DNA of 64,000 bases. Source: Branchiostoma floridae. Taxonomy: Eukaryota; Chordata; Leptocardii; Amphioxiformes; Branchiostomatidae. This document shows positions 4,757 through 55,000 of the stretch, piece after piece. The position numbers were made by a program, and so were the translations under genes. The notes under the pieces are model-generated. The model searched no databases. It saw nothing but the letters and a program-made list of their open reading frames with translations, and was not told where the DNA came from. Where the stretch lies: NCBI RefSeq assembly GCF_000003815.2, contig NC_049985.1:13045567-13109566 (forward strand), read 5' to 3'. Positions within the stretch are counted from its first letter, which is position 1; each line of letters begins with the position of its first letter.

Positions 4757-4796
4757 ATAGGATCTCAGCAAGTCCATAGATCCAGATAAAAGAGAC

Positions 4797-5380: not shown

Positions 5381-5499
5381 GCTGGCTTAATCTCCAAGCA
5401 GATCTTGCTGTGGCAAATCACTGTGGCCAATATCACTCCTCTACCGGCTAAACTTCTTCCCATTTGCCACAACAAGATCTGCTTGGAGATTAGGCTGGC
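5381..5499. repeat. Fold-back inverted repeat
   Basis: Arms of roughly 38 bp (5381-5418 and 5462-5499) are nearly complementary across a core beginning TAATCTCCAAGCAGATCTTG. They are separated by a 43-nt spacer. It looks like a non-autonomous fold-back or MITE-like element. No target duplication was identified. Confidence 0.65.
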
Positions 5500-10734: not shown

Positions 10735-11998
10735 GAAACATAGCCTCTCATTCGAAACAATAGAACATGCTGAAGATAGCAGCACGTCTGAAAATCAGTA
10801 TCTATCACATATATGTATATCCCAGGTAGTGTCATGTAATTGTGCTATTACAGTGGTTTTACTAGAAAGTGTGTGAAGAAGAATGGTCTATGTGGTAGGT
10901 GAAAATTCTAAATAATAGAGAGCCTGTAAGAATAAATTTGATTGTTAGAAAGTAAAAATTCCTTTTTTGTCATAACAAATTCACTTGGGTATTGTAGCCT
11001 TCCTATCGAGTCAATTATTTTTACAGCTTGTCCTTTATGTAAAAGATCAATACTACACCAAACTATGTTGTATCTTAGCACCAAACGATATTTCATAATT
11101 ACCAATAGATTTCCTTGAGTATATACAAACAAGGACAACTATCGTGATGAAGTAGAGGAAAACTTTGTCTAGTAACACTAAAAATAGAGGTGATTCTGAG
11201 AATGCATAATAAAGCAATGTACATTCCCATCCCATTGTGTTGTAAGTCTGTTTTCTTGTCACAGTGTTGACATCTTTAACCTAAAATTAAGCTTTGGGTC
11301 CTTCAGAGGTTTTAGTTTAAAAATCAGTGACCGCCTCTTCATATAAAAGCACCACCTGACCAACATAACCACTTTGGTGGTTCTTAACTTCTTTCGATAA
11401 ATTTTGCCATCAATACAAGAACAAGAATCCTTTTTATAGTACCCAGCTGTCCACATAGAACAAATGATATTGTTCCACTGAGTACTTTTTGAGCAGTTCT
11501 AACTATACAAGGACCTTGCGGGGAGGCTAAAACTGGTCAAAATTTCGACTGCAATGTAACAAAAATGTAATATTGAATGCAAGCAGTGGAGATGTCGGAG
11601 AAACTCAAGGAAAAACATGACAAAATACCCGGGTACTGTTCCTTTTTAATCCTTTCAAAACAAGGCTATTGAACAGTACATCTTGTTCTTTAGATTAAAA
11701 TAAGCTCTGCAGCACAGAATAAATATTCAAATGCTATAAAAATCATCATACTACATGTATATTTCATGAGTTAGTAATAGACAGCTACTTTCAACAGGAA
11801 TACAGGCAGTGAGTTACTAGTATAAGGGATGTCACTATCTCGTAGCTCATTTTTCTGGAGAAAAAATCAAGGTTACACGTACTATATGATGCTTTTCAAA
11901 GGGCTGGGCATTAAACAATTATGGAACATTTTAACAAAGCACTGTCTCAAAAAAATCTCCATGGAATGCAGAGACCTTCCTTGCACAGTTTGACAGCA
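10735..11998. other. Convergent 3' intergenic region
   Basis: This region holds the 3' UTR of clathrin light chain (+ strand) and presumably that of WDR36 (- strand). No other gene or structured repeat stands out. Confidence 0.6.
10931..10936 (+). terminator. CLTA: Probable poly(A) signal of clathrin light chain
   Basis: AATAAA lies about 200 bp after the stop codon. A second candidate (AATAAA near 11208) would give a longer 3' UTR. The gene is tail-to-tail with WDR36. Confidence 0.5.
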
Positions 11999-14900: not shown

Positions 14901-17900
14901 ACTCACTCAGTAATCTAAAGGGATGGGGAGCTTTTGTACATATTCATCGTCATGTTCTGCATTTTATGTTTTATCCCAATTTTTGTAGGCCTATAAAGTA
15001 TTACAAATACAGTGATGAGCGGTTAAAAGATATTCTTGTGGTGAATCTAACATCGCAGCCTAAACATCACAGCTAAAAGATCTAGCTTTATCTTCACACT
15101 TCTTTCTTTTCAACCATTTTTGACACAATTGTGTAGCAGCTGATAGAAATGACTTACTTATACATGATAACTGTATAAAAAGTGAAATACATTGAGTAAA
15201 GGAAACAAACTGACCTCCCAGTTGGCAAATCCCATGTCCTGACTGTACAGTCCATTGATGATGTCACCAGCCACCTGGCATCTGGGCTAAAGGTCTGCAT
15301 GTAAGAAGGAAAATAAAGACAGACTTACACCAAGGCTCAAAATGCTTTTCACCATATATTGCTCCATTGCATGTAACAATCAAGATTTCATGCAACACAC
15401 AAAACAAAAAGTCTACCTACAGAACATCAGTCATGTGTTGAAATTCTCACCATGTCTGTGATCCTGTTCTGGTGTCCTGAAAACCTCCTCACCACTCTCC
15501 TTGTCTCCATATCCACAACAACAACTGTGAAGTCATCACACGCTACGGCAAGCATGTTGCTGGGATACAAATGTAAACACAACACTCATGCATGTTTTCT
15601 ATCAGACATGAAGATATAACATAAAACATTTAAAAAGTATAAACAGATAAATTCAGTCTTAATTTCATGCAGGCTCAAATAATGGAACACATCAACATTT
15701 CTACTTGTGAAAGAAAACTTTGTATTTCAACCCAAAGAACCCACCAGTTTGAAGTCGACGTTAAGATGATCTGTACTGTTATCAATGGTAGGAACATCCT
15801 TGTTGTAACAGTGATTTCAAGACCTACCTTTCCCTATGTAGCACCATTTGAGACACAGGTGAGTCCAGTTCTAGAGTGTGGAGGAGTTGTTTTGACTTGA
15901 ACTTCCAGAATTTTAACATGCAGTCTGCGGCCCCTGTGACAGTCACTTGGTTCAGTCCATCTACTGCCACTCCCCTGACAGAGGTATTATGTGCTGCAAA
16001 ACAATGAAATAATGTACACTCCAAATGCCCAGGATTTAGAGTTGGTACGAGTAGATTAGTATGCCTTACAATACAATTTCAAATTTTAACCAATCTACAT
16101 CTACAAAATAAAACAATTGTAATTTATGTTCTCACAGCACTAAAAGGGCTCAAATATTTCCTTCGAATGAAGTGTTTTAGTAAAATCTTAAACGGTTAGA
16201 AAAGTAAAGAGTTACCTTTTGGGCTTCCATATGATCCCCTGTAGATACCAGACTGTATGTTGTAGACATCTACATGTCCTGAGCTCTGTGCAACCACACA
16301 GAAATTACCACAGGATGTGATGGTCACCGCCTAGGGAGACATTGTGACAGAATTCTGTTTTACTCGATGTTGTTGATAAAAAAAGTGACATTCTCTACAA
16401 TATATCAAACAGTATATCACTTTGCATGAAGGAGATGCACTCCTCTCACCAGTGCCTCCACTCCCATGTCGCTCTGTGTTTTCCACCTGTCGTGCTCCAG
16501 CTTGTGTTTTCCCATGGTGCACTTCTGGTAGTTCCATGTTGACGCGACCTTGTGACCTCTGTGGCAGCACACAATGGAGTCCCAGTCACTCTGCCTGGTC
16601 GTCTCTGAGACAAAAATAAAAGGTTGTTTTAAGTTACTTCTTCAAGGAAATATGGTAATTCCAACATGGTCTTAACCATAGTATTCTGAACTTATCATCA
16701 TCGTCATCATCATCTTCGCTGCATATCAGTGTTAGCTGAGGCAGGCTGTCATTGTTCTTCACACTTTTCTATCTGCTGAATTCACTAACCTGGGGATCCA
16801 GAGACATACATAAATGTATATACATGTACATTTCTTGATATTATTTGTTTTGTATCAAATATGTGTATTAAGATATTAGTGCTCAATGTATTTGGGGAAA
16901 GTTAAACTGGAAAGTCTGACAAAAATATGGAGAAAAAATATGGAGGTAAATGTTCATGGAAATACCTTAACCCAATATTAAGTTTCTGTATTCCAATGAG
17001 AATTGATAATTTAAGACCCATACCTGAGGCAAAGTCCATGATGGAAGGAAGCTTGTGCTCATCGTTCTTTATACCCTTCTTCTTAGCCTGTTGTCTCTTC
17101 ATGGAGGCTAGAAAACAGTTTATACATTTGATGACAGAAATTTGTTAACACTATCATGCACTGCAGGTCTTGCACTTTAAAGTATACTGGAAAATATGGC
17201 ATTAGATACAGGCAACTCAAGATTGAACAGTAAGAAGAGGATGGTAGAAAAATAACCAGAATGCAAAGAATGCATTTGGCTGTCTGTAATTTTCATCTTA
17301 TGCTTTATTTAAGACATACCTTGTCCCAGGTTCTTGTTGTGCCTGTCATGTACAGTAGAAAAGGACTGAAGGGTGCTGTCCTGACCTGGAAGGGCAGAAA
17401 AATATATTATCTGAGCAAAAGCTTAAGGTATGCCTCAAGAACTCCAGCAATATCAGAATGTCTTCCTTTGAAATAACTATAAAAAACAGCAATCATGAAC
17501 ATTTTCCCTTTTTTTAAATCTAACTGTTACAGACATTTGTTTTGAAAATCACAATTTACATCCTGCAATCAGCCATTGTGATAGTGGTACTGAAACAACA
17601 TACCTGCACTGAGGATGTTCTGCCCATTGTTGCCATGGAAACGAATCCTGTTGGGCGGGGCCCTGTGGCCACACCTCATCCTCAGCAACCTGCCGCTGCC
17701 ATCAGACTGGTCCAGAACCCATTCCTGAGGTAAGACAATAGAGAGAGAAAACCTTTGATCAGCTCCAAAAAAACATCATATATAGTGACACAGCCTACCT
17801 CTGGGGGCAGCATCAATTTGGTAATTTGGTATTCATGTGTTTGAATCAAATTGAACTATATATTTACTATAAAACATTGTATGTTCTGGAATTTTCCTGT

Positions 17901-20900
17901 TTTTTCTTGCACCTTGATTGAGTTATCTGCAGCTGATGTGATCATCATGGGTTCGGATGGCAGGAACTTCAGCCCTGTCACTGCTGTCCCATGAGCCTCT
18001 CTCATCTGGGCCAGCAGCCGCCTCTCCTCAAGATCCCACAATGCAATGTGGCCAACAGTACTTCCTGTAGCCATCACTGGAGGACCATCTGGGGTATAAC
18101 ATATAAGAAATTGAGGCATGTACTATAAAGTTGTGAGCTACATGTAAGTAGAACTCAACTATTGTACATGTACAGCAAAGCACTTTTGTTTGTGTACAGG
18201 AAAAACGTATTCCCACAATAGACCGTCCATTCACAGCAGTTCAACCATTGGTGTGCAATGACCAGTTTAAAAAAAAATGAAAAGTGGCTGCATGTAACTG
18301 TAAGACATTTCAGTGTTTTTACTCTGCATAAATTTTGTAATTTGGCATATAGTATTGGCAGGTGGTCAGGTCTATAGGATTTATATACTGGCTATCTTTT
18401 ACAAGATCTTTGGTAAGTCTAGATCAGAGGACAAATGGCAAACTTTCCAGGTGAATGAACGATTTGATATCAGATTGTGCCTGACCCACCAGTTCTGAAT
18501 CCGATGGCTGTGATTGGTCCCCAGTCCTGATACAGCTTCATTACTGTCTCGTCAAACTTGATGTTGTGGACCACGATCTGCCCACTCTCTGTTCCCACGG
18601 CAACAACATCCACAGCAGGGGCCTGCAGAGGGCACAGTCTCTACTGTTCATTGGATCACAGCAAAGATCTTTTGCTCTGACTTTTATTATATAGTAATAT
18701 GATAACAATATCTGGTGTATTTGCAGCCATTAGGTACCCAATATTTGGGTAATGAGGCTGATTTATGAGATCGAAAGACGAATTCGTGGAATGCTTCGTC
18801 GGTCTACATACAGCACCCAGTCTTCCTTGGTGGTCTAACATCCAAATACTGTCCGGACCACACGTTGCTTAACAGCTCAAGGGTCTCGGCCACATGGACA
18901 TTGAGTTGATGCACTGGGTTTTGACCAACTGTATGAATGTGTAGTGTACTGACATTCACTAAAGATTTCAACAATTGATTCTGTGAATTTTGCACACAAG
19001 TGCTGCAGCCCCTACCTGTTCCACAACAGTGATTGGGGATCCCCAGCCATCAAACGTATGCAGCAACTTACTGTGAAAATAAACCACAAGCAGAGGGATT
19101 TAATGTGAAAGTCAATGGGAGACATGTCAGCAAAATGTGCAAATACTAATTACCAACAGAGCACTGATGAATTTCCATTTCTGAAGTAACTCAATGAAAA
19201 TATGTATATAAAACAGCCTTATACGACAAAAATCCTTTACACAAATGCTTACAGTTACACGTATGACAAAACATTGAAGTATTGAAAAGTGGCCGTACTT
19301 GGTCCGGATGTTCCATAGCTGCATGCTGCCCTGTCTGCTGCCCAGGAGGATTTTGTTAAGGTAAGAGCTGGGGTGCATCAGGGCAGAGATCTCAAACGTC
19401 CTGTTGTCAAATGTCATCTCCAGATATAACTCTGCAACATACAACATTACCTAAATAAATCTTTCAAAACCAGTACTAGAGTACTGTTAACATCTTAAGC
19501 ACAGAAGGCAAAAGAGATGTACAATTTCAAAGGACTGATAAGTAATTCTATTGTGTACTACTGACAAGCAGACTTTATTGAAGATACAGAAATAACTACA
19601 GCCTACCTTCTGACTGAATGTCCCATATCTTGACTACACTGTCCACATCCACACTGATCAGGTGATTGCTGAATGGCAGCAGCAGATGAACATCCTTCTG
19701 ATGACCTTCATAGGTGTGCTTCACCTGGACAACAAAAAACACAACTTTGTAAACAATCATTAACAAGATTGTGTTCTCGCCGCAATAGTGCCACCTACAT
19801 CGGCTACATAGAACGGCAAGAAGCAGAAGTCCAGTCAGAAGCTCTGAGAAAGGTGTCTGATAGACACTGAAATGTAGGCAAAGTAAGTACATCCTGGTTG
19901 TGAACAAGAATTCTTCTATATCCAATCATCAACAAGACTATCTATATTGGCTCCAGTCCTAAGGTTTCACCAAAATATGTGGCAGGAAAGTCTTGCCTAA
20001 CTAAGAAAATCCTCCACTTGTAACTGACAGGAAACCATAAAAGAAGAAGATTCCATTCAATCATTCTTTGATGACATTTCCCACAATCCTTACATTGCAG
20101 CTTGATTGCATGTACTGTTTGTCCTGTGCGCCATGGCAACCATTAATGCAATAATCAAACATGAAGTGTCCTCCTATAGAAACTTCTAAATGAGATATTC
20201 ATCAATTATATTTCCTATTCATGCTATTGCACCATTGAAACCTAGACACCTGTAATATATCTACACGGATACCATAAAAAAGAAATCAGCAATCAAGAAA
20301 TATACCTTATCTATTCATTCCAGTCAGACCGTACTTATAGACTGATAGAGCCTGTTTCCCTACTGCATACACCTATAGTAATTCAGACAAATTCAGATTT
20401 CTTATGAAGTTACACAAACATGTGATTGCAAAATCAATCTGTTCCTACATTTTAGTATCACTAAGACGCGAGAAGAAGTTGAATTCACTTTGATAGTAGA
20501 ATATAATTCTTGTGTCATTTTGTTGCAACCTGTACTTAACACAGTGGGTATACATGTACAATAAAGGTCTTCATCATTATCAACAACGCTACTGATACAC
20601 AGGCTAAACATCATCAGTTTTGGTGAGATTGCATGGTGTAATCAGCATAGCTTTGCGCTCGGGCCCAAGACATGTTGGTCCTGAGTTCAAAACCTGCCAT
20701 GCCAGTGATCTTGTGTCCTTGGGGAAGGTAGCATAATCTTCAAATAGCTTTGCGCTCAGGCCCAATACAGTGATCTTGTGTCCCTGAGGAAGGCAGCATA
20801 ATCTTCAAATAGCTTTGCACTCTGGCCCAATACATGTAGGTCCTGAGTTCAAAACCTGCCATGCCAGTGATCTTGTGTCCTTGGGGAAGGCAGCATAATC

Positions 20901-22103
20901 TTCAAATAGTTGAAGGCGGCTGCCTTAATCGAAAGAAGAAGAAGAAGGCACTTTACACGACTTTCCTTACTTTACTAAGGTGAAAATGAGTACCTAGCTT
21001 CGGCTAGGGCTGTCCCTTGGATTGGACGTTAAATGGAGGTCCCGTGTTTGGGGAGAGTCACACCCCACGCACGTTAAAGAACCCGCCACACTTATCAAAA
21101 AGAGTAGTTGTCCTTCTTGGTGTGAGTGGATCAAAACTTCCAGTCTTGTGTACGTCTTTCGTACCATGCTTGGAGCCCTCAGCCTAATTAGGTTAGGCAT
21201 GTATAACAAAGAAGAAGAAGAATTGTACCTGTCTGCCCCGTTCGAAGGCCCTGATGACATTCCTGCAGCCTGTGAAGACCAGGTAGGCATCCACAGCCAT
21301 ACAGGTGATGGTGTCAGGGTGGGAGTCACTCACGCTCACAATACCCAGCTTGGAGCACTGCATGGAGAAAAGACATGTCATTATTGAAACTAAAATCGGG
21401 CTTACATCAGTAGGTCATATGACCACATGTAATATAACGTTATAATTGAAACGACAAGAGGGGTAAGTAGAACAGAAAGAAACGATATATACAAATATCC
21501 TGACTCCCGGGAATCAAACCCGGGCCGTCAGATCACAACCCTAGCAGCCAGTGCCTAGCAGCATAACCGATCGAGCCAAAAGCCTGACAGGCGTTTGGTA
21601 TAGTCGGTTGGCGCTACTTGAACCCCAACTGTTACTACTAATATATAATACCTGAACTAACATTTTAATCATGCTTGCGTGCAATCAACCCTTAAAAGGG
21701 CCAACTGGATCAGTTTTTCAAATGTTACATATACCTACAATGTTATTGTTACATGACACATTTCTATTGCAGTCTCTATGTCATACACATGTAGAGTTAG
21801 CTTTTAAGTTTAAAGCCGGTATAAACTTTTCGACGCCCCCCTCCCCAAAATAATTTGCAACTTTGTAACCCATACGTGCACACTATTGAATATCTAACAT
21901 TACATCATAATCACATCAACAACAATAAGACAAAGATCTATAACTCCTCGTAGACTTACATTATAAGTGTGGAAAGCCTTCCCCACACATGTAATGACGT
22001 AGTGTTCCTGATGTTTCTGATGGTAGCGGACCTGTAGAGGAACGTGGTTAGAGTAGTAACCCAGGGCACGGAAACCCACGAAGATCTGGCTCGCTCCGGG
22101 CAT
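11999..22103 (-). CDS. WDR36: WD repeat protein 36 (Utp21), U3 processome subunit
   Basis: WDR36/Utp21 is a UTP-B subunit of the nucleolar small-subunit processome needed for 18S rRNA maturation. Twenty-two minus-strand exons join in frame: 21960-22103, 21229-21357, 19607-19724, 19299-19431, 19016-19070, 18490-18622, 17913-18088, 17604-17724, 17320-17385, 17024-17107, 16450-16604, 16216-16330, 15828-15993, 15451-15559, 15215-15294, 14698-14805, 14235-14335, 13820-13968, 13128-13241, 12806-12893, 12456-12643, 11999-12148. They total 893 residues, close to the human protein. Tandem WD40 propellers fill roughly residues 30-630 (for example GHIALWDLEERRLL, SVRGVAVDGLNQVTVTGA, MDCTVRTWDLPTG). The Utp21-type C-terminal domain follows, with LITLSLLPDSRWKSLTNLEL, APFFLPTIPGLE, DFELAQAW and the terminal FNQSICLINYLKSATL. 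An acidic DEEEEDIAEPE linker separates the two. All introns are GT-AG. The start is the first ATG of MPGASQIFVGFRALGYYSNH, matching the family N-terminus. Confidence 0.95.
14882..14909. repeat. (ACTC)n microsatellite
   Basis: A short tetranucleotide tract lies in a WDR36 intron just beyond exon 16. Confidence 0.85.
19725..20630. repeat. WDR36 intron 2, dispersed repeat fragment
   Basis: From about 19765 to 19930 the sequence (around GAGAAAGGTGTCTGATAGAC and TGGTTGTGAACAAGAATTC) resembles the type of dispersed repeat tail often found in amphioxus introns. This is a memory-based impression without alignment. The remainder is ordinary AT-rich intron. Confidence 0.35.
20634..21190 (+). mobile_element. 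tRNA-derived SINE with tandem internal duplication
   Basis: An A-box-like TGGTGTAATCAG (20634) and a B-box GTTCAAAAC (20685-20693) are spaced as in a tRNA-type RNA polymerase III promoter. A unit beginning AGCTTTGCGCTC and ending CATAATCTTCAAAT is repeated in tandem: 20649-20745, a 65-bp internally deleted copy to 20810, and 20811-20908. A body follows containing GGCACTTTACACGACTTTCC, CCCGTGTTTGGGGAGAGTCA and CACGTTAAAGAACCCGCCAC. Reverse-complement fragments of the GGCACTTT-CCTCAC type recur at 38647-38700 and 56817-56860. Confidence 0.6.
21500..21587 (-). repeat. tRNA-like sequence (SINE head or tRNA pseudogene)
   Basis: On the minus strand an A box TGGCTCGATCGG (complement of 21567-21578) and a T-arm-like CCCGGGTTTGATTCCCGGG (complement of 21506-21524, with a perfect 6-bp stem) are spaced as in a tRNA. 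The anticodon stem and acceptor stem do not fold canonically, so this is not called a functional tRNA. It lies in WDR36 intron 1. Confidence 0.55.
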
Positions 22104-23490: not shown

Positions 23491-24265
23491 TGAAATATAT
23501 GATCACGTTGTCTGTAGATACAAATGCACTTTCAAAATGTCAAAGGACGTTGTCGACGTACGGCACATCCATGTTTCTATAAATGAAAGACAAATGTGAC
23601 AACTTACATTTGTGGCCCCACAACGATAGCGTTTGGTCAAGCTTTTAGTTGGGTACGACGTTTGTGCTTGGTAAATTTTAAGGAGACCATTTGGTTTCAG
23701 CGGCTTAAGTGCACCGTCCTTTTGAGTGGGAGATTATTTTCACCCCTCATGTCAGATTATTTTCATCTCTCGTGCTACATTTCGACCCCGCAGAAGATTC
23801 AGTAACCGGTGTATTCATCCTTACTTTTACACAGAAATCTTGCTGTTGAAGAGGATTCGGAAACCCTCAGATAACGATAACGTTACATGTATGTCAGCGG
23901 GTGCCGTCCTTTGTGCTGAATTGCCGAGTGGTCCCTGTTGTAACGTGCGTCATCAGAAGAAAGATCCCGGTAAACTTGTCATAGATCTTCAGAGGTACCA
24001 TCCAAGCTATCCAATGTAAATATCTATTTACAGGATCTAAGTAGCCTGCCTAGTTTCATAATTGGGAAAGATTATTGAGTTTTTAATATCCTTGAGTTAT
24101 AAGCATGTACCGAAGACGCAGCTGCGCGAACCGAAGAACTTAATCTCTCCTGCCGCCAGTTTTCCGGTAAAGTCCCGCCCATTTCCAGTACAATATTAGT
24201 GACGACACGCACAGCAAAACTCCGCACGCACACAGACTGCCGCCTCATAAGTCAGGGGGAAGGCG

Positions 24266-27175
24266 ATGGTAGACACTCCGGGAGACTTTAACCTCTCGGG
24301 GATGTTGCCGCCGGACTTGTCCGGGGCGTCCCAAGCCTTTCAAACCGCATGGATAGTATCCATCCTCATCGCTAGCGTCCTTTCCAACCTGACTGTTCTA
24401 GCCGTGGTGATGTGTATTGAGGACCTACGGCAGCCGACCAACTACCTTCTGTGCGCCCTGTCAGGCGGGCAGATGCTACAGGTGTTGGTCATGGCACCCC
24501 AGGCGGCGGTACTGCTCACGGTGGCGGGGGCACACATGACTGAGGCGGCATGTGTCGTACAGGTAGGAGGGTATTCCTCTGACGCACATCTGCATTTTAA
24601 AGCCACGTAGGGAGGATGAGTGTTATTGAATTAAAGTTGGGAATGGCTTATTGAAAACTGTCGGCAAGTCTTACAAAACGTATTTGTCAGAAATCTAGCA
24701 AAAATGAAGCAGACGTGAAGTGACGGGGGAAATAAAAGCGCGCGCTGATTACGGTAGAAGCATACGTCTCACTGAAACAAGTTTCCTTACATACAGCAGT
24801 GCACCCAGTAACGATCTTCTGCCAGTCATGTTTATAAGTATTCCAGATGACACTCGGGTGTTTTGTAGCGTTGTGATCAGCGTGCATATACAACTGTAGG
24901 TGTGCCTGATTTCGACATATTACTCCATGATAAAGACTGCGTTGGCGTCTGCGGCCTGCCCAACAAGATGATAATATGGTATCACATAATTTCCTAAATA
25001 CAGGCCTCTTCTCACACAAAACACATATGACAGTACAACTGCAAATGGTTAATTGAATTAACTGTTTTCGAGGATGCAGAAACAGCTAGACCAATGGCAG
25101 TGCAACGGAGATGTATTTTTTCTGTAAATCTAAAACGAAATAACATTGTTTCCGCTAGCTATAGCTTCTATCCACGTCGTCTGTAAAATCAATGTCAAAT
25201 CATGATAGACATGACGTCTGGCCGGTTAGATCAATCCGTAACCACGCAATTGTTATGTATGACATCTGGACGCAACTAATAAGGGAATTCTAGACTTCAT
25301 TGAATGAATAAAATAACCTTTACTGCGGGGTTAAGCCACTAAAGCTAAGTATAACTATATGCGTTTAGGCCGATACTGCCTACTTAGCAGTCTGCTGGGC
25401 CTTTTATTACTTATTAGATGAACGAAGTTTATCTGTTAGTTCTCTAATTTAAAAAAAAAACACGTTAATGTAAACTGTAAGTATTATCTTAAAAGCAGGG
25501 CCTATGAGCTCACACAGTTTTGGGGAGCGAATACACGTCGTACATGTAAAAAGGTGCAAGTTTTCTCCCGGCTTTCTGTTTTCATGTTGAATTTTTTCTT
25601 TAGGATGTCTGAGACCCAAGAGGATAAGTTATGTGGTGTTTTCTGGCTGTGCATATCTTCTGATTGTAACGTACCGGGGGAGGCTCAGCTTACAAGAAAC
25701 CGCGTACAATCAGATCGTAGATGTAGCTAAGCAATCATAAAACAAATTAAGCAATCGGGGCCCAACCTGTAAGGCTGCTAAAGAGCCTCATAATGAATAG
25801 CTATAGGTATACTTAAGCTTCCATGTCAAACTGATCGGTACGTAATGACCAGTAATATATGGGGGTTATTAGATGTAGTTTGCTATGGGTTGCAATAGGT
25901 TCATCCAATTGCAAAGAAAAGCGGTAAAGAGAAGGGTGGAGAAAACTGGTAACCAGGTCTGCTGTGGTGCCCCAACGGACAAATAGAATAAGGTCATAGA
26001 TGAGATGAGATGAGATGAAATCAGATTCTGTTGTACTCTGCAAATTTTTCTATCAATGAAAATTCATCATGAAGGCGTACTGCAAACATAATAGATATCT
26101 ACAATTCATGAAAGAACACAAAAATAGGCACTGTGTCACGACTCTATCACTATTGCGGAAGAACCCTTCTGCTCAATCTTGGAGATGACGAAAACAACGC
26201 TTATCACAAGCACCCTGCACCTGTGCCAACTATCAACAAGCTGATAAAAACCGGCTCAGGTAATTATAATGTGGCTATGCACCTGCATATACTTTTTGAG
26301 CGCAAAACCCGCTGTTTTAATTTGCGGTAAAAATAGAAATGTGCGTAGTTGTCATGAATTTGATACACATGGAAAGTTAGTGGAGGTTACCAATTTCACA
26401 ACACTTCGACCCATGAAGTTCCCTTCAAGGTTTCACAATAACAACAGGCCAAATATCTCATCAGTTTGAAGAAAAAAACACCGTTGAACAGGCAAGACGA
26501 TTAGCATTACAAAGTAGCTTGGGGGTTTGGGATGTATTTGGTTAAGTAAAAATATTTGCCTTCACATGACGAAATCCAAAATACGCCACACTGGCTAAAG
26601 CCAATTGGAAAGTATAACTTTATAGAGTTTTCGGTGGAGTATGAAGAATGTATATCTAGTATACATTTGGCTGCTCTACCGTCGATTGCCAACAAAATGG
26701 TGTTTCTGCAAGAGGCCAGAGTGTTGCCGTTTGACGGTGAAAATAAATGGAGTACTTTCTGTGCAAAGATGCAGGTAATAATTCACTTGTAGGAACGATC
26801 TCCTGAAACGCAATTAGTGAGTCAAGCCGATGTCCAACGTCAGAACGGTTCGCTCCTGATCCTTTTGAGATGTTGTAAAAGCTCGGCTTCCATGAGTTAA
26901 GCCGGTCGATCGATACATCCCCGCTTTGCGGTTTGCACTAAAAAGTGGTCAAGTCTCACTAAAAATAGGAAATGGCCGAACAACAGTGAATTTTCCTAGT
27001 AGTAGTACATATTTCCAGGAAACCCTGTAGGCGCGTCGGAAATGACATTAGAATGCTTGCTTTGCTCTTGTGGTCTAAAGCAAAGGTCTTTGATGCACCA
27101 TCACCTGACGACCTGAAATGAAATTCAATCAAGTTTAGCAAGAAGGCTATATTTTTTGTGCCGTTCGTAAGTGTG

Positions 27176-27241
<66 letters not shown>

Positions 27242-29841
27242 TGTGTCTGTGTGCTTTGTCTGTGTATCTGTGTGTCAGTATAACTCCAGAATCCGTGGAT
27301 GGATTCTCATGATATTTGGTAAGTAGATATTGTTTCAAGTCCTGACCCCGAACAGGCTCCCCCGAGGAAAGTTAATTTAGACAGATAGAAGGTGGAAGCT
27401 AAATTTCCTTGTCTACAGACCTCAAGACGCTAACGGGCTAGCTAGGTGATTTTTTTTCAATGAGAAATTGATCCATATGGATCACGTCGATGGGCCAAAA
27501 CCTTTCAAGTTGGTAAATCACACACAGGAGACGTTACTTTCGGGGGCAAAATGAGAGGAACTTCGACGCGGACATTTCTCACCAAGAAGACGTTTCCCAA
27601 TAGAGGAATCGCCGTGCGCGTCACCAAGTATTAGCACCACTATGTACTCTCGCAGGTATCCGGTATTAACCTCACGACAGTGCACCAAAAATAACTCGTT
27701 TTAGTAAGATCTGTAAGCTGGGAAGGCAGAGGCATTATGCGGTGTCCTTGGTTGGAATAAGACTCCGCAGGGCGCAATTACAGTGAGAGTGAAAGGGCAA
27801 TTTACCATAAATATGAAATATGAAACCCACTGCGTACCAAAAATACCTGCATGAGAGTTTAATTAATCTGACTCAAAGGCATGATCCGTCACTAATGCGA
27901 TTAACCCAATAGCACAACCGTGCAGCGGCTGTACTATTAAGTGCTGGCTGGGCTGGATTCCTAGAAGTGGGCTGGATTACTAGAAGTAGAATTCTACACT
28001 ATGGCACTTTGCCTTTTGCTTTGTAGGATGGAAGCAGTCGTTTTCCGTCGATGTTTTTAAAAGCTTTATTGACAAATAACAATAATTACATACATTGTCA
28101 CAATTACATCTACGGCTTCATAACCACATCTCCGACTACCACAAATATACCCTTACGTGCTTGTACAAAATTGACGGTGTTTTCTCTGTACTTTTACTAT
28201 ATAATTCATACCGTTACATACATACATACATACATACACATACTAAAGCAGAGAAACTATTGAGTGCTAATATCAAAACCATCAAAAACCCAGCTCTCAC
28301 CAGTTTTCCGTCCATGGTACTGAATTGTATGCTGTCACATGTGTGTATAACGTTACGTAGATTGCAGAATATCATTCGACTTTGGATATCTATCAGAAAG
28401 TATGTAAGTAATATATAAGGAAAAGTTGCGGCCCAGTTGCTCCAAAATCTACCATTTCTAAAAAGAAAACTACGGGAATCTTAAGATACTCATCGGTCTC
28501 ATCACCTACGTCCTCATCTACAAATCATGTTGAAATATCAAATGTTTCATAATTCGTTAATTTTTTGCCAAATTAGGGCATCCTGTTCATGGTCTCCATC
28601 ACCTTCACGCCGTGCATTCTGGGAATCCTGTCGTTCGACCGTTATCACTACATCGTCCACCCCACCGAGTATCGCAACCGCTTCACCGGGCGGAGCGTCC
28701 CCACAGGTATACACATTCGTTTGTGATAATTTTGTTACGGTTTCTCCTGTCGATTTTTCGACAAATGATCAGGCAAACAGACACTTGCCGGTCATTAAAA
28801 AGACATGTCAAGGGACTATGGACAGGCGGTTCTGCCTGATATCGGCACCTCAAAGGAACAATGGCAAGTGAAAAACTGTTAGAATTAACAAAGTTGTCTG
28901 TTTGCGGCCAGTGCCACTTATTTGTTCTCCTATGTTTAATCCGCTAACCTGGCAATTCAATAAAATCCACTGACAAATCGGTCATGCAATTAACAGGATT
29001 CTACTTCTATTCATATTAGTGTCAAGACGTTAGTCCGATTAAGGATGATTTTTAATGACCAACCTGCGTATAGCTGAAGAAAATAGGCCCTTTACTTTAA
29101 TAAGATGCATTGGCCCTTGTGATGCAAACTAAGGTAACATTAGAAAAATGTCGTAAATCATAATCTTTCATGCAATGTTATTTCAGATTTGCCGTCGAAT
29201 TGCCGTAGATAATTCTACCGTGATTCCAGCGGAATGTTGTCAGCATTGCCTGTAGAATATATCTAGAATATGCTAATGAGATGTAAATGAGGCACACTAA
29301 CGTTCATTTCTTTGTAGCCATAGCGTGCACCCTCCTGTTCACCTTGACCATGGCGGTGGTGGGGCTCTTCCAGGGGAACTCCTACCGCCTGAACGCCGGC
29401 CTGCTGGTCTGTACCAACAGCGCTGCGGTGTCTGACGTCGCCTTTATCGTCTGCATCCTTCCCGCCATCGGTCTCATCACCTACTCCTACGTCTTCATCT
29501 TCAAGGAAGCTCGCTCCCACTCGCGCAAGATCCTCCCCAGCGTCTGCTACGACGCTCGGCTGAAGGACTTCAAGGCGAAGATCAAGACGGCCAAGACGGT
29601 GATGCTCGCCATCGTGATCTTCTTCCTGACGTGGGTGTCCATGGTGCTGGCCTATGTGGTGTCGTCCTCCCGAGTTGAGCCGGGGCCCGGCGACATGCTG
29701 GTCCTGAGGATGACAAGTCTCATCTTCCTCCTCTCCGCCTTCCCAAACCCCATCCTGTACGCCTGCAGAAACAGGTTCTTCAGGGACGCTGTCAAGCGTC
29801 TGTTCAGGAGAACAGCCAATGCTGTCAAAGACATGGTCTAA
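24266..29841 (+). CDS. Class A (rhodopsin-like) G protein-coupled receptor, orphan
   Basis: This is a seven-helix plasma-membrane receptor with unknown ligand. Exons 24266-24562, 28577-28706 and 29318-29841 (phases 0 and 1) give 316 residues. Class A landmarks are N41 in helix 1, C96 at the top of helix 3, DRY at 120-122 (exactly 25 residues from C96 to R121), C174 in extracellular loop 2, P191 in helix 5, W248 in helix 6 and NPILY at 286-290. Departures from consensus: the sodium-site Asp of helix 2 appears to be Gln69, and helix 6 reads FFLTWVSM instead of FxxCWxP, so its Pro is replaced by Ser250. The N-terminus is about 25 residues and the C-tail about 26, both short. The loops recall small-loop receptors such as the melanocortin/lysophospholipid/adenosine group, but I cannot assign a subfamily. 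Confidence 0.85.
27181..27240. repeat. (GT)30 microsatellite
   Basis: Thirty uninterrupted GT units occur within GPCR intron 1, with imperfect GT/CTGT continuation to about 27275. Confidence 0.95.
28215..28238. repeat. (ATAC)n microsatellite
   Basis: A short tetranucleotide run lies in GPCR intron 1. Confidence 0.85.
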
Positions 29842-35174: not shown

Positions 35175-35226
35175 GCAAACACCTGTTAATGTCAGTAACA
35201 GCAAACACCTGTTAATGTCAGTAACA
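35175..35226. repeat. 26-bp tandem duplication
   Basis: Two identical consecutive copies begin GCAAACACCTGTTAATGTCA. They lie about 200 bp upstream of the promoter of the secreted-peptide gene. Confidence 0.95.
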
Positions 35227-35398
35227 GTTTGAATTTAGGAAATGAAAACCAAACTTTATGTAAGTTGTAAATATTGGTAGCATGGAACCAATTTTTGGTT
35301 TCAATTTAGTCAAATCCTCGTTGATATTTCACCTGAAAGCGTTTAGCCCCTGGGTATGAATATGCAATAAATAACATTGTCATTGTAATTACTCAGTA

Positions 35399-35587
35399 CC
35401 AATCAGAAATGTGCATTTTTCTAGCCAATGGGTGAGCAAAAAAGAGGAAATTATCAGCCAATGGGTGAGCAGAAAAAGGCAAATCAACAAATGAGAGTAG
35501 CGTACAGGGTATATAAACGCACCGCCGACACCACAAGCTTATTAAGTTTTTCTGGAGGAGTTCTGCAGAGTACCGTGGGAGAAAAAG
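35399..35587 (+). promoter_or_regulatory. TATA/CCAAT promoter and 5' leader exon of the peptide gene
   Basis: CCAAT boxes occur at 35399-35403, 35425-35429 and 35458-35462. The last two lie in a 33-bp-spaced direct repeat of AGCCAATGGGTGAGCA. TATATAAA lies at 35510-35517, about 50 bp after the last CCAAT. Transcription probably starts near 35540. A noncoding exon would end at 35587 (AAAAG|GTCAGT) and be spliced to 35747 (TTTTACAG|TGAAC). Confidence 0.65.
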
Positions 35588-35825
35588 GTCAGTTTTGTCA
35601 AGTTTGGTGCCGTTTTGCTGGATATTCCATTGTACTTCCTTACCTTTGTCAGTCATGCAGAATTGTCGAGTAATACTTAGAAAAAAAAAAGATTAACATC
35701 TCGCAACTTCGTGTCACCGCTTTCATCCCTCTTCTTTATTTTACAGTGAACTGTCGGAGAAAAAGGCGTCCAGGTCTCTTCACACGTCCAGTTGCCGTTC
35801 CCCCTGACTTGGATTCACAGCAAAT

Positions 35826-36480
35826 ATGAAGGTAATCGTTTTGACGGGCCAAGACCTTGNNNNNNNNNNNNNNNNNNNNNNNNNNNNNNNNNNNNNNNNN
35901 NNNNNNNNNNNNNNNNNNNNNNNNNNNNNNNNNNNNNNNNNNNNNNNNNNNNNNNNNNNTCTCGTGTAATTGATCTTATTGGTCATGTAATCTAAGGTGA
36001 GACGTGTTATCGTACAACCACTAGAAAAGGGGAAGAAGCGTGGCTATCTTTTTATCTGGGTCTTGTCTTACGTTTATTACGTTCATGTCTCAGGCCAAAC
36101 GTTGCTGGTATCTAGACTGTTTTAAGCGATCCTTTTCCGTAAAACTCTCCATTCTTGTATTTCACTGCAAGATGTTCATGGAACCGTTGGTTTAGATCTT
36201 TATTTTTCCCGCTTAGGTCTCCGTTCTACTGCTGACCGTACTGGTTCTCCTGGCGGCCGCCACAGCTGCAATCGATCTGGAGGACGTCAAGACCAAAAAG
36301 GACGCCCGAGAGTACTTGAAGGCGGCGAAGAATAAGGTCAAGGCCGCCAATGAGCTCCACAGCAGGATGAAGGCCGAGGGCAGGGACAGGCTGGCCGAGA
36401 AGTTCCAGAAGAGGGCCAGGGCTCTGTTGAAAAGGGGCAAGAGGAGAAAGCAGCAGCAGCAGCAGCAGCAGGATGACTGA
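35826..36480 (+). CDS. Secreted basic helical peptide precursor, unrecognised family
   Basis: The coding exons are 35826-35831 (ATG AAG, then GT) and 36217-36480 (after TTAG), joined in phase 0 to give 89 residues. Residues 1-19 form a signal peptide (MKVSVLLLTVLVLLAAATA). The mature part starts near AIDLEDVKTKK and is Lys/Arg/Ala-rich (net charge about +11) and predicted helical. It has no cysteines, so it is not a defensin-type peptide. Near the C-terminus LLKRGKRRK combines dibasic sites with a Gly-Lys-Arg amidation signal, followed by seven Gln (CAG repeats) and DD. Such organisation suggests a processed, possibly amidated secreted peptide (hormone-like or membrane-active), but no family is recognised. 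The 100-N assembly gap lies inside the intron, so an extra exon cannot be excluded. Confidence 0.65.
35860..35959. other. Assembly gap (100 N)
   Basis: Exactly 100 undefined bases occur, a conventional gap length, so the true size is unknown. It falls in the intron of the secreted-peptide gene. Confidence 1.
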
Positions 36481-36749
36481 AATGACGAACGGAAAAGCAC
36501 GCGAACTCTGTACGATTCAGAATGCTCTACTCGACTTAGCTAATGCGAAAATTGTCTACTTGTCATAGTATTGTCTACGTCAAAGATCCCATCTTCATTT
36601 AATTTGATGCACGTGAAATCTGGTCTAAAATACATCTTGGCTCCGTGCACGTTAAATCTTACTCCATGTAAAATACATCTTACATCATTGGACACTAACT
36701 AACGTACAGTAACTAACGTAATTTTCATGTCATAGATATCCGAATGTTC

Positions 36750-36755
36750 ATTAAA
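36750..36755 (+). terminator. Possible poly(A) signal of the peptide gene
   Basis: An ATTAAA hexamer lies about 270 bp after the peptide stop codon. Confidence 0.4.
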
Positions 36756-37422
36756 GATGCCTTTGATCAAATTTTTTATGAATTGCTATCATGTGTTGCT
36801 GTCAATTTTTCCTCACAGAATTTTCTCCAATTTTGAGCAAAACTAGCGTCCCACTTATTATAGCTACTACTCGGATTATTCACGTCTAGCTTCTGGTAAT
36901 TACCTCAAGGCATAAAGATTTCCCATCTACCGGTAGAAATCTGCACATGAACAAAAAAGTTTAGTGTATTAGGAATAACAAATTCCAGACTGTATGCCTG
37001 ACAATAAAAGCAGATTTGCATAATACTGGACACAAAAATATTTCAAAATGTCTCTTCTGGTTTTCTACAAAACACTGTCAAACCAAGCAAGATCAACTCA
37101 ATACTACGACTTTAAGTTTTTGGAAAGATCGTTTCACAAATCATAACGCACAGATACCTAAAAGTTCTTCTTGCCCCTTTGGCTCTAAAAACTTAACCTT
37201 TCTTGTGATTTCCCAAATTAGTGTTTCCCAAAATGGTAAGTTGAAGCAGGCAGTTCACAAATGGACTCATAATTACAACAGTATCAGATAACATGAAAAG
37301 GAGTCGAAGTTACAGCCCGATGGGCACACTTCAAATGAGGTTTTGCTTTTCCCTTAGTAAGATACAAAAACGAGAAAGTTATGTAGCTGGTTATTTGTCA
37401 AATGCAACTCTTTATGATGAGG

Positions 37423-46000: not shown

Positions 46001-49000
46001 GAATTTTCATTTAATTTTGGTCCGTCACAACCGCTATGACGTAAAACTTTACTGCTGGCCGTAGCATTAAAAATGGCGGGAAAATGGCGGCGTACGTTCA
46101 ATTTGACCCATTCAGCCGTAGATCCGGGCGATAATGCAACGGTTCCTCACACTTTTACACGAGTTGTAGGTCACCAAAAGAAATTCAAGATTGCTGTTGA
46201 ATCATGCTCGTCTTGTGCCGTGAGCACATGTGATTATTATCTACAAATCTGGCGATGAACATGACAGTGTGTTTGTCCCACGACGAGCTCGCCTGCCCCG
46301 AAAATGACCTGAAAACTTTTGGCCTTGTTGTCTTTGAATGCATTGTTATCGATGCTTTGTAAATGATGTATTGGACACCTAGATGTCTGAAGTGTGCATA
46401 CCTCAGAAATAACTATTGTTGCATGTGTAGATCTCTTTAAGTTCCACTATTTTTAATCGACCGGTATAAGGCTTATGACCGGTATTATGCCAATGCATGT
46501 TACAGTAATAACTACTGAAGTGATTTGCAAAAGGACAGGAGTTAAGTTCTGTTATGTAATTCACCCTTTTCCCTCTGCCATAAGCTCAAAACGTTCATTC
46601 CATAATTCAATCAAATCAATTTTCCAGGATCATAACCTTAAACTGGGAAGCTAAATTTTGAGATCTTTGGGCACCAAATTCTTCACCCCTAGGCACTTCA
46701 GTCTGATCCCACTAAATTGGGTAGCTGACTTTTGACAAAGGGAAGTTTGCACAATTTGCATGTTATCATTACTGCAGTCAGCAACTTATAAATGGAGCGC
46801 AGACATTTACATATAAAAATGTTTCCCCTGTCAAAGCTCATAATCATATTTACCGATGAGTAAGCCTACAATGTAATTCCATATGCCTGAACATGGATAC
46901 TTTGATGAGATTTCCTGCAAAGGTCTGAAGCAGAAAATAGCACTCTTTTGTACAAATATGATAAATCCTGCGAAGGTGGTTGTTGTAGCACAATCTATCA
47001 ATTTGAATACAAGTCAAACTTGTAAGGTTGATGATCCACATAAGAGGTATGAAGCAAAATTTGATTTCTCAATCTCTGGTATGACATTGGGATAAGTCAG
47101 TACTTAGAATTCTATCCTCATGTAGTAGATTACATAGTAAGCCCTGAGGGGCTGGCTGGTTGTGACAGATAACATTCTTACACACACTTGTGGACAGGAA
47201 AGGGTCTCAGGGTCAGTCTTAATGGATCACACACACTTGGGAATAACTTGATATAAGCCACACATTCATCACTCATGCATCCTACACTTTAGATGTGTCA
47301 TATTAAGAATACTGTCTTCTTACTATGATCTTAGTTTCATAAGATGGGGAGGTATGGGAGCTCAGGTGAACTAACTAGGATGACACTTAGACACTGCCTC
47401 AAAGAACAAGTACATTTGACTATTGATAGAAGGTGTTAAAGAGCAAATTTGAAAAAGTTGAGCGGCTGTGCTTTTGACCCGTACCCTGACTGTAACATAT
47501 ACTCAGTCTGGCCATCATCTATCATCTTAGCTAAGTCTGTTCTGAATCACATTTTGTCTTGACCCAATAAAATTTACAAATACAAATACAAATAAAAGAA
47601 ATGCAATGCATACAATGTACAATCATGCTTTCACAATCATACCAAAAATACAATCTTAAAGAATCTTAATGACCTAAGACACAACTCTCCAAGGATTACT
47701 TCTCCCAGACAGCGTCTCAGACAGGAATAAGATCATGATCCTTTCTATACTGCAACTTTATTATCAATTGAGCCTGTCTCACCTTGGATGCAAACATGGC
47801 ACTATACTGACGTGGAGCCACTAAGATTAATCATATTGTAATCCTGGAAACTTTGTTGTGTTAACGTCCACATGACTGACACCTATTGAAAGATGAGAAA
47901 CAGCTAGAAAAGAAAGGTTGAATTGAATTTGAAGAAGATTCCTGAGGCAGAGTTGTACAGTGCCCATAAGTCATATTCCAGGCCTTATACTCAGTACAGA
48001 ACTGAGAGAATACAGCATGCCTGCAAAATGGTGTACAAAAAGACTTGGATTGAATAAGCAAAGAAAAAGCCTATTTTCTTACAAATTTTGCATTATGCTA
48101 CAATTGGCCCATAATGGCCTCATACATCATATGCCATTGGCCCAGGGAGAGAGGGAACAATGATGATGTACTTACTTGGCATTCATCTTTTGTTGTGCAG
48201 TGAGCAGTTTCCTGAGTTCAGACATAGACTGTCTGTTGGCATCTTCTGTTCCTTCCAACTTCACTGTAAACTCTCGCTCTCTCTGTTTGTGCTCCTGTTC
48301 CAGCATTGCCACCTTTTGGAGTAACACATATAGAATGTTGCATCATTCACTTTTATTCAGTTTTCCTGCTATACCTTTCCTTCTACAGGTCTACATGCTC
48401 ACATAGACATTGTCAAAAATCAACTTACACGTACAAAATGCATGAGAGAAAACAATTGAGAATATACTGTGTCAAATATTCAGGAAAAAACAAACTCCAT
48501 GCAAATCTCTCATTTACTGAGTATACATTAAACAGTGGGGGAAATGAGCTTTCCTGACACCTGACACAAACAAACAAACAAACAAACCCACCTGTCTAGC
48601 TGCCTTCCTCTGTGCCTCCTCTCCCTGTCTCCTGCCATTGTTGGCCTCCTGCCGCAGTTTGCTGATCTCCTCCTGCAGTTGTATCTTGTCCATAGTCAGG
48701 TCCTCACAATCCTTCCTCAGGGACTCCACACGGTTGGCTGTCTGTGAGAGGATTGCCTCATGCTGCAGTTTGTCCTGGTCTCTGCTACGTGGTGGGGAAA
48801 TGGATTAGTCAAATGTAAAATGTGACTCAACTATACTTCAACAAGGAATGCAAACCTCTACTAGGGGTGACACAGTTTCTGGAAGTGAATTGATAGATTT
48901 ACAAACTCACTCGTCCTCCATTTTCTTCAGTCTCTTCTGCAGTGACCTGAGGTTCATGTCAGCCTCGTCTCTGGCCCTCTCAGCGTTAAACAGCCTGTTA

Positions 49001-52000
49001 GTCAGCTCAGACGCATGTCCTCCCTCTCCTTCTCCTGATTTGTACACCTGATGAAAGAGAACTCTTTCAATATCATCATCACCATTATAAAACAATATTC
49101 AGTGGTAAAAAATGCAGACATGTACAGACATAACGTTACATGTACACGAAACACTGACAACTGAACTAATGTTATACTTTCTTTTTACACATAACAGCTT
49201 TAAAACTGACCAAAAATACTTAATATATTGTTATTAGATATGATTTTTTGAAGCACATAAACATATTACAAGAATACAGTACTAAAAAATCACCGAATAT
49301 TGAATTTGCTGAGTAAATCCATTTGGAAGAAATGGCACTGTCCCAAAGTAATCACCTTTTCCAGCTCCCCCTCTACGGCCCTCTTCTCCCTAATGGCACG
49401 GTCCACCTGAGCCTGTTTCTGTCCAACCTCCATCTCCAGCCCATGGATTTCCTCCATAAGTTTCTCCAGGTTCTTATTGCACTGTTCTCTCACACTGTCC
49501 ACCTGGAATCATAACACCAATTCTTAATGGTGCTTCTGTGACATTCAAATTCCACATCTTCAATTTCCTTGCATAATGACATGAAGACAAAGAGCATGTC
49601 TCACCTCCTTCCTGGTTCTTGCCCCAGCTTCATTCAGCAGTTTTGCCAGCATGGCCTGCAGTCTCTGGATCTCCTGTGCATTCTGCTTCTCACGGACAAT
49701 GGCCTGACAGGATTCCAGGATTAGAAGAAACAAAGAACCACAGACTTACAATTCTCCACCACAGATGGCTGAACTATAATGATATTAACCAAAACATCTG
49801 ATTTTTTAATCCTGAACTGTAACCATTGCTATTTTTAGATTTTGTTGGCAGATACGAAATATGGAAGCCTACAACAGACAGGTAGACAAAAAATTATCAT
49901 CTGATGTTTAATTACATTTCTATAGATCATACCCCAGTTTCTTACATCAACTTTCATCCTGGGTGCAATGTGTTAACAGAAGTCATGTTGGAGAGAACAA
50001 AATTTCCTACCAATACCAATTAGAATTTCACTACAAAATTTATGCTATTCATAACACCAATAATGCTACAATTGAACTACATATACCGGTATAAGCCCTT
50101 TCACAAAGATCAGAACGCATATGGGGCGACAGGAATTCTAAGTAATATGTCAAAGGTGAAGGTCCGGAAAAAGAAAACAAAACCCGCCTGAACGTTTTTA
50201 TGCAAATTAAAACAATGGTTGAGACAAGGACTGTTTTCAATTTCGGGGCCTTTACCTTTGACACATTACCTAGAATTCCTGTTGCCGCACATGCATTCTT
50301 AGTCTGTGTAACACAAACTCCGCTGTCCATGGCTGTAACTTGCCCCTCCCCGCAGGCTGCTATAAGCGAGATTTAATCAGGCTAATGCATTCTGCTCTCT
50401 GTGAGAGGGCTTATACTAGTACATGTGCCATTTGCATGTATTTATTCTTTTTCACCCATACGATATGGATCTTGTCTCACCTGGTCCCTCTCCAACAGTG
50501 CGTTCTCCACCATCTGCACACTGTCTCGCACCTTCTCTGTCACCTCAAACTCCCTCTCCTCCAGCTCAGAGTTCTTAGACATGAGAGAAGACACTCTGTC
50601 CTCCAGCTTCTTCTTCTCTTTCTGGAGACTGTCGATTTCCCTGATGGCATCAGCAATCCTAGGTAGGAAACCACAAGAAAGAAATTTCTTAACATTTGCA
50701 AGTAAATACAACAGGTGTACTTTATTACCCATCATTTCCAAACACACACGTCATTATATCATGTGTACTTATATCTATACAGGCTTGCATGTAAGTATGT
50801 AGTGTATTGTACATGTATGTACTTAATATTTATGTCATACCTGGGCCGCGAAAACGTTTGATACAGGTGTTCTGGACCGTGTGATAACTTTCTGTATCAC
50901 ACGGGTTCTAAGTTGTATCACACAGGCTTCATTTGAGTAAATCAACCTATTTCGAACGGGCCAAATACGGCACGGTTGAAAATTCGAATACCGGATTCGG
51001 ACGTCAGAATTGCTGTTGTTACAATCTTTTGTTTGAGGACACAACATTTTCTCAACTTCTGGTGCATTTTGCATCAATGTGTTTTCTAGGGTGGGTATGA
51101 CATAGATAAAATACATCATATACCTCCTGCCGTCGGGTGATCCTCCCCGCGGTCTGGTTGGTACCTCGGGTGATACGGAATACCCCGTGTTGTATTCTAT
51201 ACATACAGGTATGTATTAAGAAGGTCAGAGGTCAGTCGTAGAATGAGGCTGTTTTTTTTTTTAACGTCTCCACAAATTTGGCAAACCTTTGCCATAATTT
51301 TTTTGCGTGTAGAACACTGAAAGAAGCCAAACTTGTCCATCTGGAGACTCTTGTGGGTCAGCAGAATAATGTCTGACAAAGACATGGGTACCCGACCCTG
51401 GGATAGTGCTTGACATATGCATGATATAATATCATGAGAACATACTTAATCTCCAGGTCCATGGCAATAGTCTGCACCTCCTTCAGTCTGGTCCCTGCAG
51501 CCTCCTCCCTTCCCAGGGCTGCACTGTTCTCCTTCTCCTGTAAACAACAATAACAACAACAACATCAGTTTTCCCTTAAGGGAGTGAACAGTAGAATAGG
51601 ACAATAGGAAATTACAAGAAAAATCAATGCGGAAGCTCCCTCTATTGGAAAAGGTAATCTTTCCACATCATCATTGCTTGACCTACTATTTGATGATGTC
51701 ATCTGTAAGAAAAATACAAATTTGTTGTATGTATGACTCCTGAGCACAAAGATGGTCTAACCGTTTGAGAACATTTTTTCTTTATACCATGATGACCCAA
51801 AAAACGTAATATTGTCTAATTTATATTGATGTGTGTACACATAAAGAAGTAAGGATTAGCAGTATGACAAAGGTCTTCATTAAAACATGTAGAACATTTC
51901 CTTTAAATTCTTGTCACACAAAGCTAGTGTGTTTTGTCAGTCTGATATGTTCAATTCATAAGAATTTTCAGCATGTATCCTTAGGTATCATATTCACATG

Positions 52001-55000
52001 CAAATTGAGCTATTTACATGTTGTATAACCAACTGTTCCTGCTTTGCTGTAAAACAGTTTGACTTTACCTCATGTTGCCTGGGGAAAGGAATGTCAGGTA
52101 TTTTACTTCTTAATTGCTAAATTGTCCTTAATCATCCCTTATCATTCTACAACAAGAAGGGACATTATAAGCCCTGGAATGCCATTGATATTCCAATCAA
52201 AGCACAAATTGCTCAAAGTAATGAATCATGTGCTTCAAACTGTGCTTAAGTGCAATAACCTTAGAGTCTATGAGATAATAATTTTAGATGTATATTTCTA
52301 ACACAATACATACCACACCCTATCATACACTCTCTCTTGCAATGGAGAATAATTCTATATTCATTGACAACAAAGAGGCTTAATTCACAGATATATGCTG
52401 CTATCGTTGCTGCCTATTAATGATCATCAATACACAGTAAATACATATTGTAGTTTACTGTATTATAGTCGTCAAATAATGCTTATCTACCATACCTAGC
52501 TTTGTCACTAAAACAGCACAATCAGTAATTGGAAAAATCAAGGTAATACATCTCAACATACCCCTGCATCTGAGAATACAATAAATGGATGTGACAAAGA
52601 CAGATGCTGTGTGCATAGAAGAATAGGTTACATGGAAATAGCCTAAGGCAATGACAATTATAACAATTAACATGTAGTGCCATGTCTGTCAGAATATGAT
52701 CCACAATATTTCCTATAAACCTATATTTTAGCCATGCAAATTAACAAGACTGTTCAAGAACTGATGAAATACTACAATATACCAACCTGTTTTTCAATGT
52801 CTTACATAACCTAGGCCTGTACCTCCCATAATATGTTGAGAAGAAAATGCACTTCCATCCCTAGCTAATACTAGTATCCCCTATCTCATTTTGCCACTAC
52901 TGCACTAAACAATGGCATATGGAAAACCCTGGGGCTTCATGTCACATTTCATATGCATGATCACCAGTTAGACTGACAGCTAACATTCACAAGGGCCCTG
53001 AACACCTGCCATCAACAATGCAGACATGACAGTCTGCTATATCCATCATCCATTATGCTAGGATGACATCAATAAGACATCATTTGAATAACATTTCTAT
53101 TACGGCAAGTGGTATGATACAAGCAATATTCAAACACGTGGCCGACTTTTGATTATTGTCTATCATTTCTATTGACTTTCAATTTCAGGAAGAGTCTGCA
53201 TTTTTGTTAAATATGACTGCATGTGGTTATTTATGACCATTGGTTCTGTAAAAAACTGCAGCAGTGGTGCGGCATACTTTTTTTTGGTAAACAAGTAGCC
53301 CCCAAATCACAAAATTTTGTTTTATTGCATACCAAAAGTGTTACTGTTAGTGATACAATGTGCGCATTTGTCCAGGGCACTTCTATATTAATACATGTTG
53401 TATTAAATTTCAGGTCATTCGGCTGTAAACCAGGGCAGGATACAAAAATGTCCTTTTTTGTAAAAAAAATGGCCAAAAAAATTGCAAAATTTAGCATTTT
53501 GTTCTACTATATGCCCAAACTGTTATCGAATCTATGTGGGCATATGATCAAGGCGAATTTCAGGTCATCCGGGCTCAGTCCCTTAGCAATGGAATAATGG
53601 TGCTTTACCACCTTTATACGATTTCAGCACCTCTATCTGTATCAATTTTCAAGTCTAGGTTTTGTGCCATGATGCTGAGCCCTGAGTATAACTACAAAGG
53701 AAAAATATTGAATCCAATATCAACAAATTGGGCCAACAACAGGGAGACATTCTAAGACATACCACCTGCTCTCAGAAAGGGCTAATAATCCTGAGGAAAC
53801 ACTACTTTATTCACTTGGGCTTAATTCACAAGGTTAATGGGGTTAATAGAGTTCAGTGCTGTGTGCCTGTTAAGACTGACAGCAGATCTTTGATCTATTC
53901 ATAGATATGCTTGGGCTTAACAATAGCAAGGCAATAATGTGGGGTGCATGGATGAATACACATTGATGTATATATAGACTTGATGTGATACATCTTTAGA
54001 TGTGATGAGGCTGTCTTCCTCTATAGTAGGAGGCAACTAATAATTGGGCAGCAGCTGTTTACAACATACAGTGTTGAGTGGCTGTAAGTAACAATGGCCA
54101 TAGGGAGTCGTCTGACAGTGTATACTTCCCACCATATATATTGATCAGTAAATGTTATTGTGTTTAACTCCACATTTAGAGTTGTGCACATTGGGGAAGG
54201 CTCTCAAAATACATTTGGAATACACACTCCTGAGAGTGGTCACTGTAAGGAATATAGTCAAGCCTACACTCATGACAGAAATCAAGGTGAAGATTTCCAT
54301 TGTAAGTCTTCAGATAGTCATTTTACTTAACTGCTTTAGTGTACAACTTCTGTCTCTCACAATTTTAAGAAAAAGCAACCAAATTTTTTTGCTTCATGTT
54401 GATCAGGTTTCCTAAAAGGAACTGGTACCTTTTCTTTTTGTTTATTTATTCATTTCTGCTCTCTTATAACAGGGTGCCTCCCTCAGTGACTGGTAATTGT
54501 GTACAAACATACAAACAATCTAGTATATATAAGGCAAAAAATATTTGAAGCTCAAATGTAAAAATTGTTATTCATAATTGTTGTGTTTTTAGTCTTCATG
54601 CCAGGTAGTAAGGTTTGGAGGTCAAACCACTCTCCTGTGCAGAGGTTAAAAATTATTCAGATGGTACAGTTTTTATATCCACTAAGAATTTGTTCGAACT
54701 CACTACACCTCCATACTAGTAAGGAAATGTACCAGCTTGAACTTTCAACCCTTTAGATATAATCAATATACAACTAACCCTTCCTTTCAGCTGATCATGT
54801 AGGTCTTCCAGAGTTTTGCGGGTCTCTGTGAGTTGGATGGCACTGGTGTGGGCTTCATACTTGGCCTTCTTCAGCTCTTCTCTCAATCTGTCCATCTCAG
54901 TGTTTTGGCCATTAATGGTTGCAATGTATTGCTGTGTTGCCTGAAACAGTTAAGGTTGTAGATCAACATGACAGAAATGGTAAAAAATAATTATGTGATG

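Follow-up and report, generated by a model that had tools for sequence, protein, structure and literature searches.

A 64-kb stretch of Branchiostoma floridae DNA (64,000 nucleotides; hereafter the window) holds, on its forward strand, what its sequence indicates is very probably a real small protein-coding gene, the product of which is probably a secreted, basic protein of predicted helical structure. Whereas the gene itself is well supported, we infer what its product does, and the reading that we prefer—with a probability of about 0.42—is a three-exon gene for a secreted cationic helix that would bind anionic surfaces, perhaps for defence. Annotation easily overlooks small genes for secreted proteins when their coding sequence opens with an exon of two codons. 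In a cephalochordate such as this one, the gene would add a candidate cationic peptide to a group for which BjAMP1 is the only one named in a passage of a 2025 review (PMC11767717); otherwise it would be another small secreted protein that belongs to no known family.

Predicted promoter and exon structure

Three CCAAT boxes, which we take to be of the NF-Y type, were located by motif search on the forward strand at 35399, 35425 and 35458 (35399-35462), upstream of a TATAWAR match on the same strand, the TATA box TATATAA at 35510-35516; both elements had been proposed in the first-pass annotation, and both are present. The second and third CCAAT boxes fit RRCCAATSR and fall one in each copy of a 33-base tandem duplication (35404-35436 and 35437-35469; 73% identical). 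Among 43 forward-strand TATAWAR matches, the one at 35510 is alone in having three same-strand CCAAT motifs within 150 bases upstream, an arrangement found at 0 of the 25 reverse-strand matches in the window. The CCAAT cluster taken alone is only mildly unusual and provides modest evidence, since the forward strand has two such same-strand triplets packed into 80 bases (the other being 50010-50057) and the reverse strand none, with an expectation of 0.33 per 64-kb strand derived from six Markov sequences. Further upstream, about 280 bases from the TATA box, lies a perfect 26-base tandem duplication (35175-35226).

The gene model begins with a noncoding leader exon on the forward strand (35540-35587), its start placed about 30 bases beyond the TATA box and its end set by a donor after 35587. 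Exon 2 (35747-35831, forward), delimited by acceptor and donor scores, would carry the remaining 5' leader followed by ATG AAG (35826-35831), and the coding part of exon 3 (36217-36480, forward), assigned from its acceptor, third-position GC content, signal-peptide score and predicted helix, would supply the rest of the signal peptide, a basic helical region, GKRRK, Gln7, Asp2 and the stop codon. ATG AAG and 36217-36480 join in phase 0 to give 89 amino acids. If transcription starts at about 35540, the spliced message has no ATG before ATG AAG, which carries A at -3; without splicing, an ATG in intron 1 at 35655 would come ahead of it. A likely polyadenylation signal, ATTAAA, is found at 36750-36755 on the forward strand, with an AATAAA further downstream at 37003.

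Splice sites were scored on both strands with consensus weight matrices, covering 7779 GT and 7755 AG sites in the window. The acceptors before 35747 and 36217 rank 11th and 14th among the AGs; both donors are fair, not good, ranking 96th (after 35587) and 245th (after 35831) among the GTs and deviating from the consensus (C at +3; T at +5). These ranks and the phase-0 join uphold the leader exon, six-base coding exon and main coding exon that had been suggested from inspection of the sequence. The end of exon 1 is covered by one copy of a 28-base direct repeat (35561-35588 and 35739-35766; 79% identical) and the acceptor and first bases of exon 2 by the other, the pattern that duplication of a piece of the leader exon would leave.

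Intron 2 contains an assembly gap of exactly 100 N (35860-35959), a length that is probably conventional. With this gap in intron 2 and both donors off consensus, there is a slight chance that the gene model is partly wrong, the start or an extra exon lying within the gap, or that the locus is decayed or unexpressed. Against such an error stand the strong acceptors, an intact frame with strong codon bias, the lack of any ATG ahead of ATG AAG in the spliced message, and a phase-0 join that sets MK directly ahead of the hydrophobic core; moreover, a hidden exon in the gap would need to preserve the frame.

Codon usage of exon 3

The third-position GC content of exon 3 is 0.82 (71 of 87 positions; binomial P 2e-15 versus 0.40), the second highest among 606 stop-to-stop frames of 45 amino acids or more in the window, frames crossing the N gap being omitted. 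Ranks 1 and 3 (0.84 and 0.80) are held by exons of a rhodopsin-family receptor in the window that match Pfam 7tm_1, and the first exon of that receptor reaches 0.69. In its two remaining phases, exon 3 has values of 0.60 and 0.35. Two long antisense frames over exon 3 (36216-36539 and 36229-36516) were taken as shadows of its biased codons. Searches of the window for structured RNAs gave 0 Rfam matches at the gathering score and 0 tRNAs.

The predicted product is basic and probably secreted

The predicted protein of 89 amino acids has a pI of 10.4 and contains no Cys, Pro, Trp or N-glycosylation site. Scored with von Heijne weights, its signal peptide reaches 12.0 for cleavage at Ala19|Ala20 (LAAATA|AIDL) and 9.5 at Ala20|Ile21; in a control that scored residues 1-60 of all 606 stop-to-stop frames in like manner, only one frame came out higher, namely an antisense frame of the same exon 3. 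The 70 residues after Ala19 carry a charge of +10.6 at pH 7.4, with a pI of 10.4. Coding bias, splice-site and signal-peptide scores and charge are properties of the sequence itself; the helix is a prediction. AlphaFold2, run with single-sequence input on the 87 residues encoded by exon 3, placed helices at exon 3 residues 2-23 and 27-86 (the latter corresponding to protein residues 29-88), so that the signal helix is followed by a single long one. Of five models, the best has a mean pLDDT of 77.5 (range 66.3-77.5) and a pTM of 0.38, with pLDDT values of 80-93 in ten-residue blocks over exon 3 residues 31-80. The first-pass annotation had described a signal peptide followed by a strongly basic, Cys-free helical chain, and each of these features was recovered, the helix as a prediction from one sequence.

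The strongest 18-residue helical moment, 0.67, lies at RLAEKFQKRARALLKRGK and is matched in 5.9% of 5000 shuffles of residues 21-79. Treated as a single ideal helix, residues 20-75 reach just 0.15, and large hydrophobic residues make up 21% of them; membrane lysis is therefore doubtful. Charge pairs that would stabilise a helix show no excess (P 0.22 at i,i+4; P 0.98 at i,i+3). The Gln7 tail (36451-36471) is written as seven consecutive CAG codons, so that its length may differ between individuals.

Search for relatives

A Pfam-A scan of the protein gave nothing above cut-off and, with filters that discard most matches above about E 0.1, four matches with E up to 10, i.e., a helicase domain (E 0.033), conotoxin (1.1), DUF7261 (1.3) and DUF4398 (1.4), all far below their cut-offs and rejected. 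The PDB search returned no acceptable match (two, at E 7.5 and 8). The original statement that no family could be recognised is thus sustained by both databases. Nor does the 64-kb window hold a second copy: tblastn with the 89 residues recovered the gene itself plus weak matches at E 0.49 or more, and blastn of 35301-36800 against the window recovered only itself. Pattern searches in collections without animals, which are therefore weak tests, yielded 261 stretches in prokaryote contigs and 28 in viral contigs, with 0 confirmed relatives in either. Six 9-residue strings of the protein had no match in a full-text search of 5.39 million papers, and among the candidates listed by the literature searches none was recognisable as this protein.

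Comparison with known cationic peptides

Cecropins and other linear cationic helical antimicrobial peptides are secreted, Cys-free, basic and helical, as the protein here is by prediction; of the traits of this class it has the charge (+10.6), the absence of Cys and, predicted from one sequence, the helix. It differs from cecropins in its low hydrophobicity and in the position of its strongest amphipathic stretch, which lies towards the C-terminus, and the four Pfam matches with E up to 10 include none of that kind.

The comparison with BjAMP1 (Branchiostoma japonicum antimicrobial peptide 1) follows its description in part of the published report (PMC4683396): a precursor of 97 amino acids with a pI of about 5.1, in which an anionic region is followed by a mature part of 21 residues, two of them Cys. 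The two share a small precursor, a signal peptide and a cationic C-terminal part (PMC4683396). Residues 20-75 of the protein have a mean hydrophobicity of -0.46 and 38% hydrophobic residues, against -0.44 and 38% in the mature peptide mBjAMP1, which carries a charge of +6 and is reported in the same account to recognise LPS and LTA (PMC4683396). However, the protein here has 89 residues, a pI of 10.4 and no Cys, and is basic over its whole chain; compared by that partial description, it lacks the hallmark of the BjAMP1 family, a two-Cys mature part after an anionic region (PMC4683396). Given the two Cys of mBjAMP1 and the pI of its precursor, the two proteins resemble each other in gross composition only.

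Possible functions of the product

An alternative role, proposed together with the gene, was that of a precursor whose Gly-Lys-Arg-Arg string directs cleavage by a prohormone convertase and C-terminal amidation. We consider an amidated peptide hormone or neuropeptide a minority reading, and an improbable one. A convertase would cut at RGKR (furin-type RXKR), a carboxypeptidase would trim the basic residues, and an amidating enzyme would convert Gly76 to leave an Arg75 amide. Consistent with this route are the signal peptide, the single predicted helical chain, the fact that RGKR is the sole RX[KR]R site, and the Gly followed by three basic residues, which appears in 5.8% of 100,000 shuffles of residues 21-89. 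Of the same shuffles, however, 18.7% contain G[KR][KR], and 74.6% have at least as many dibasic pairs as the protein, which has six if overlapping ones are counted (P 0.75), so that such pairs show no enrichment; since this composition often yields GKRR by chance, the string is compatible with amidation and is no evidence for it. Dibasic pairs are also present at residues 29-30, 67-68 and 74-75, where cuts, if made, would fragment the helix ahead of the Gly, those at the KR pairs 67-68 and 74-75 falling just upstream of it. Nor are there repeated peptide copies within the 89 residues, and the four Pfam matches with E up to 10, led by the helicase domain at E 0.033, include no hormone. CRF- and PACAP-type amidated helical hormones likewise have a helix followed by Gly and basic residues; no Pfam match of their kind was obtained here, where the motif is often given by composition. 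In sum, the first-pass annotation holds for a secreted, basic, Cys-free, probably helical product with no recognised family, and is not supported, on the evidence of the shuffles, for GKRR as a processing and amidation signal. There is little chance that the gene represents a new family, restricted to its lineage, of secreted cationic single-helix proteins that release a C-terminally amidated membrane-active or hormone peptide.

A secreted basic protein with no part in defence—one that binds acidic polymers as, for instance, a structural, mucus, egg or gamete protein—is a more substantial alternative, though still an unlikely one; the high charge with low hydrophobicity, the promoter with its TATA box and three CCAAT boxes, and the Gln7 tail would all suit it, and nothing specific was found against it. 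In our preferred reading of a cationic surface-binding helix, the three-exon gene would probably be well expressed and yield an 89-residue precursor, from which the signal peptide would be removed, most likely after Ala19. Once secreted, the chain (about 70 residues, charge near +11) is predicted to form one long, partly amphipathic helix that most likely acts whole, perhaps after trimming at its basic C-terminus. It would then most likely bind anionic surfaces such as a microbial envelope, nucleic acid, or sulphated or sialylated glycans, and might thus serve as a host-defence or surface-coating cationic protein.

Neighbouring genes

Neighbouring genes were identified by scanning 20 chosen frames of the 606 against Pfam; six of the 20 had no match at E 0.01, and several others had weak matches only. 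The nearest recognised gene upstream of the peptide gene is a rhodopsin-family receptor of three exons (24251-29838, forward), which match Pfam 7tm_1 at E 1.5e-4, 1.1e-5 and 1.6e-7; the last exon alone passes the cut-off, and its best PDB match is GPR52 (E 1.9e-8). In the regions 3149-21414 and 63396-63728, exons match ribosomal protein S3a, clathrin light chain and apoptosis-inducing factor 1 (all forward) and WDR36/Utp21 (reverse). Together with the receptor, these neighbours are in keeping with an animal genome. Several coiled-coil-like frames with sub-threshold Pfam matches (e.g., centrosomal CCCAP, E 0.0035) occupy 48517-57663 on the reverse strand.
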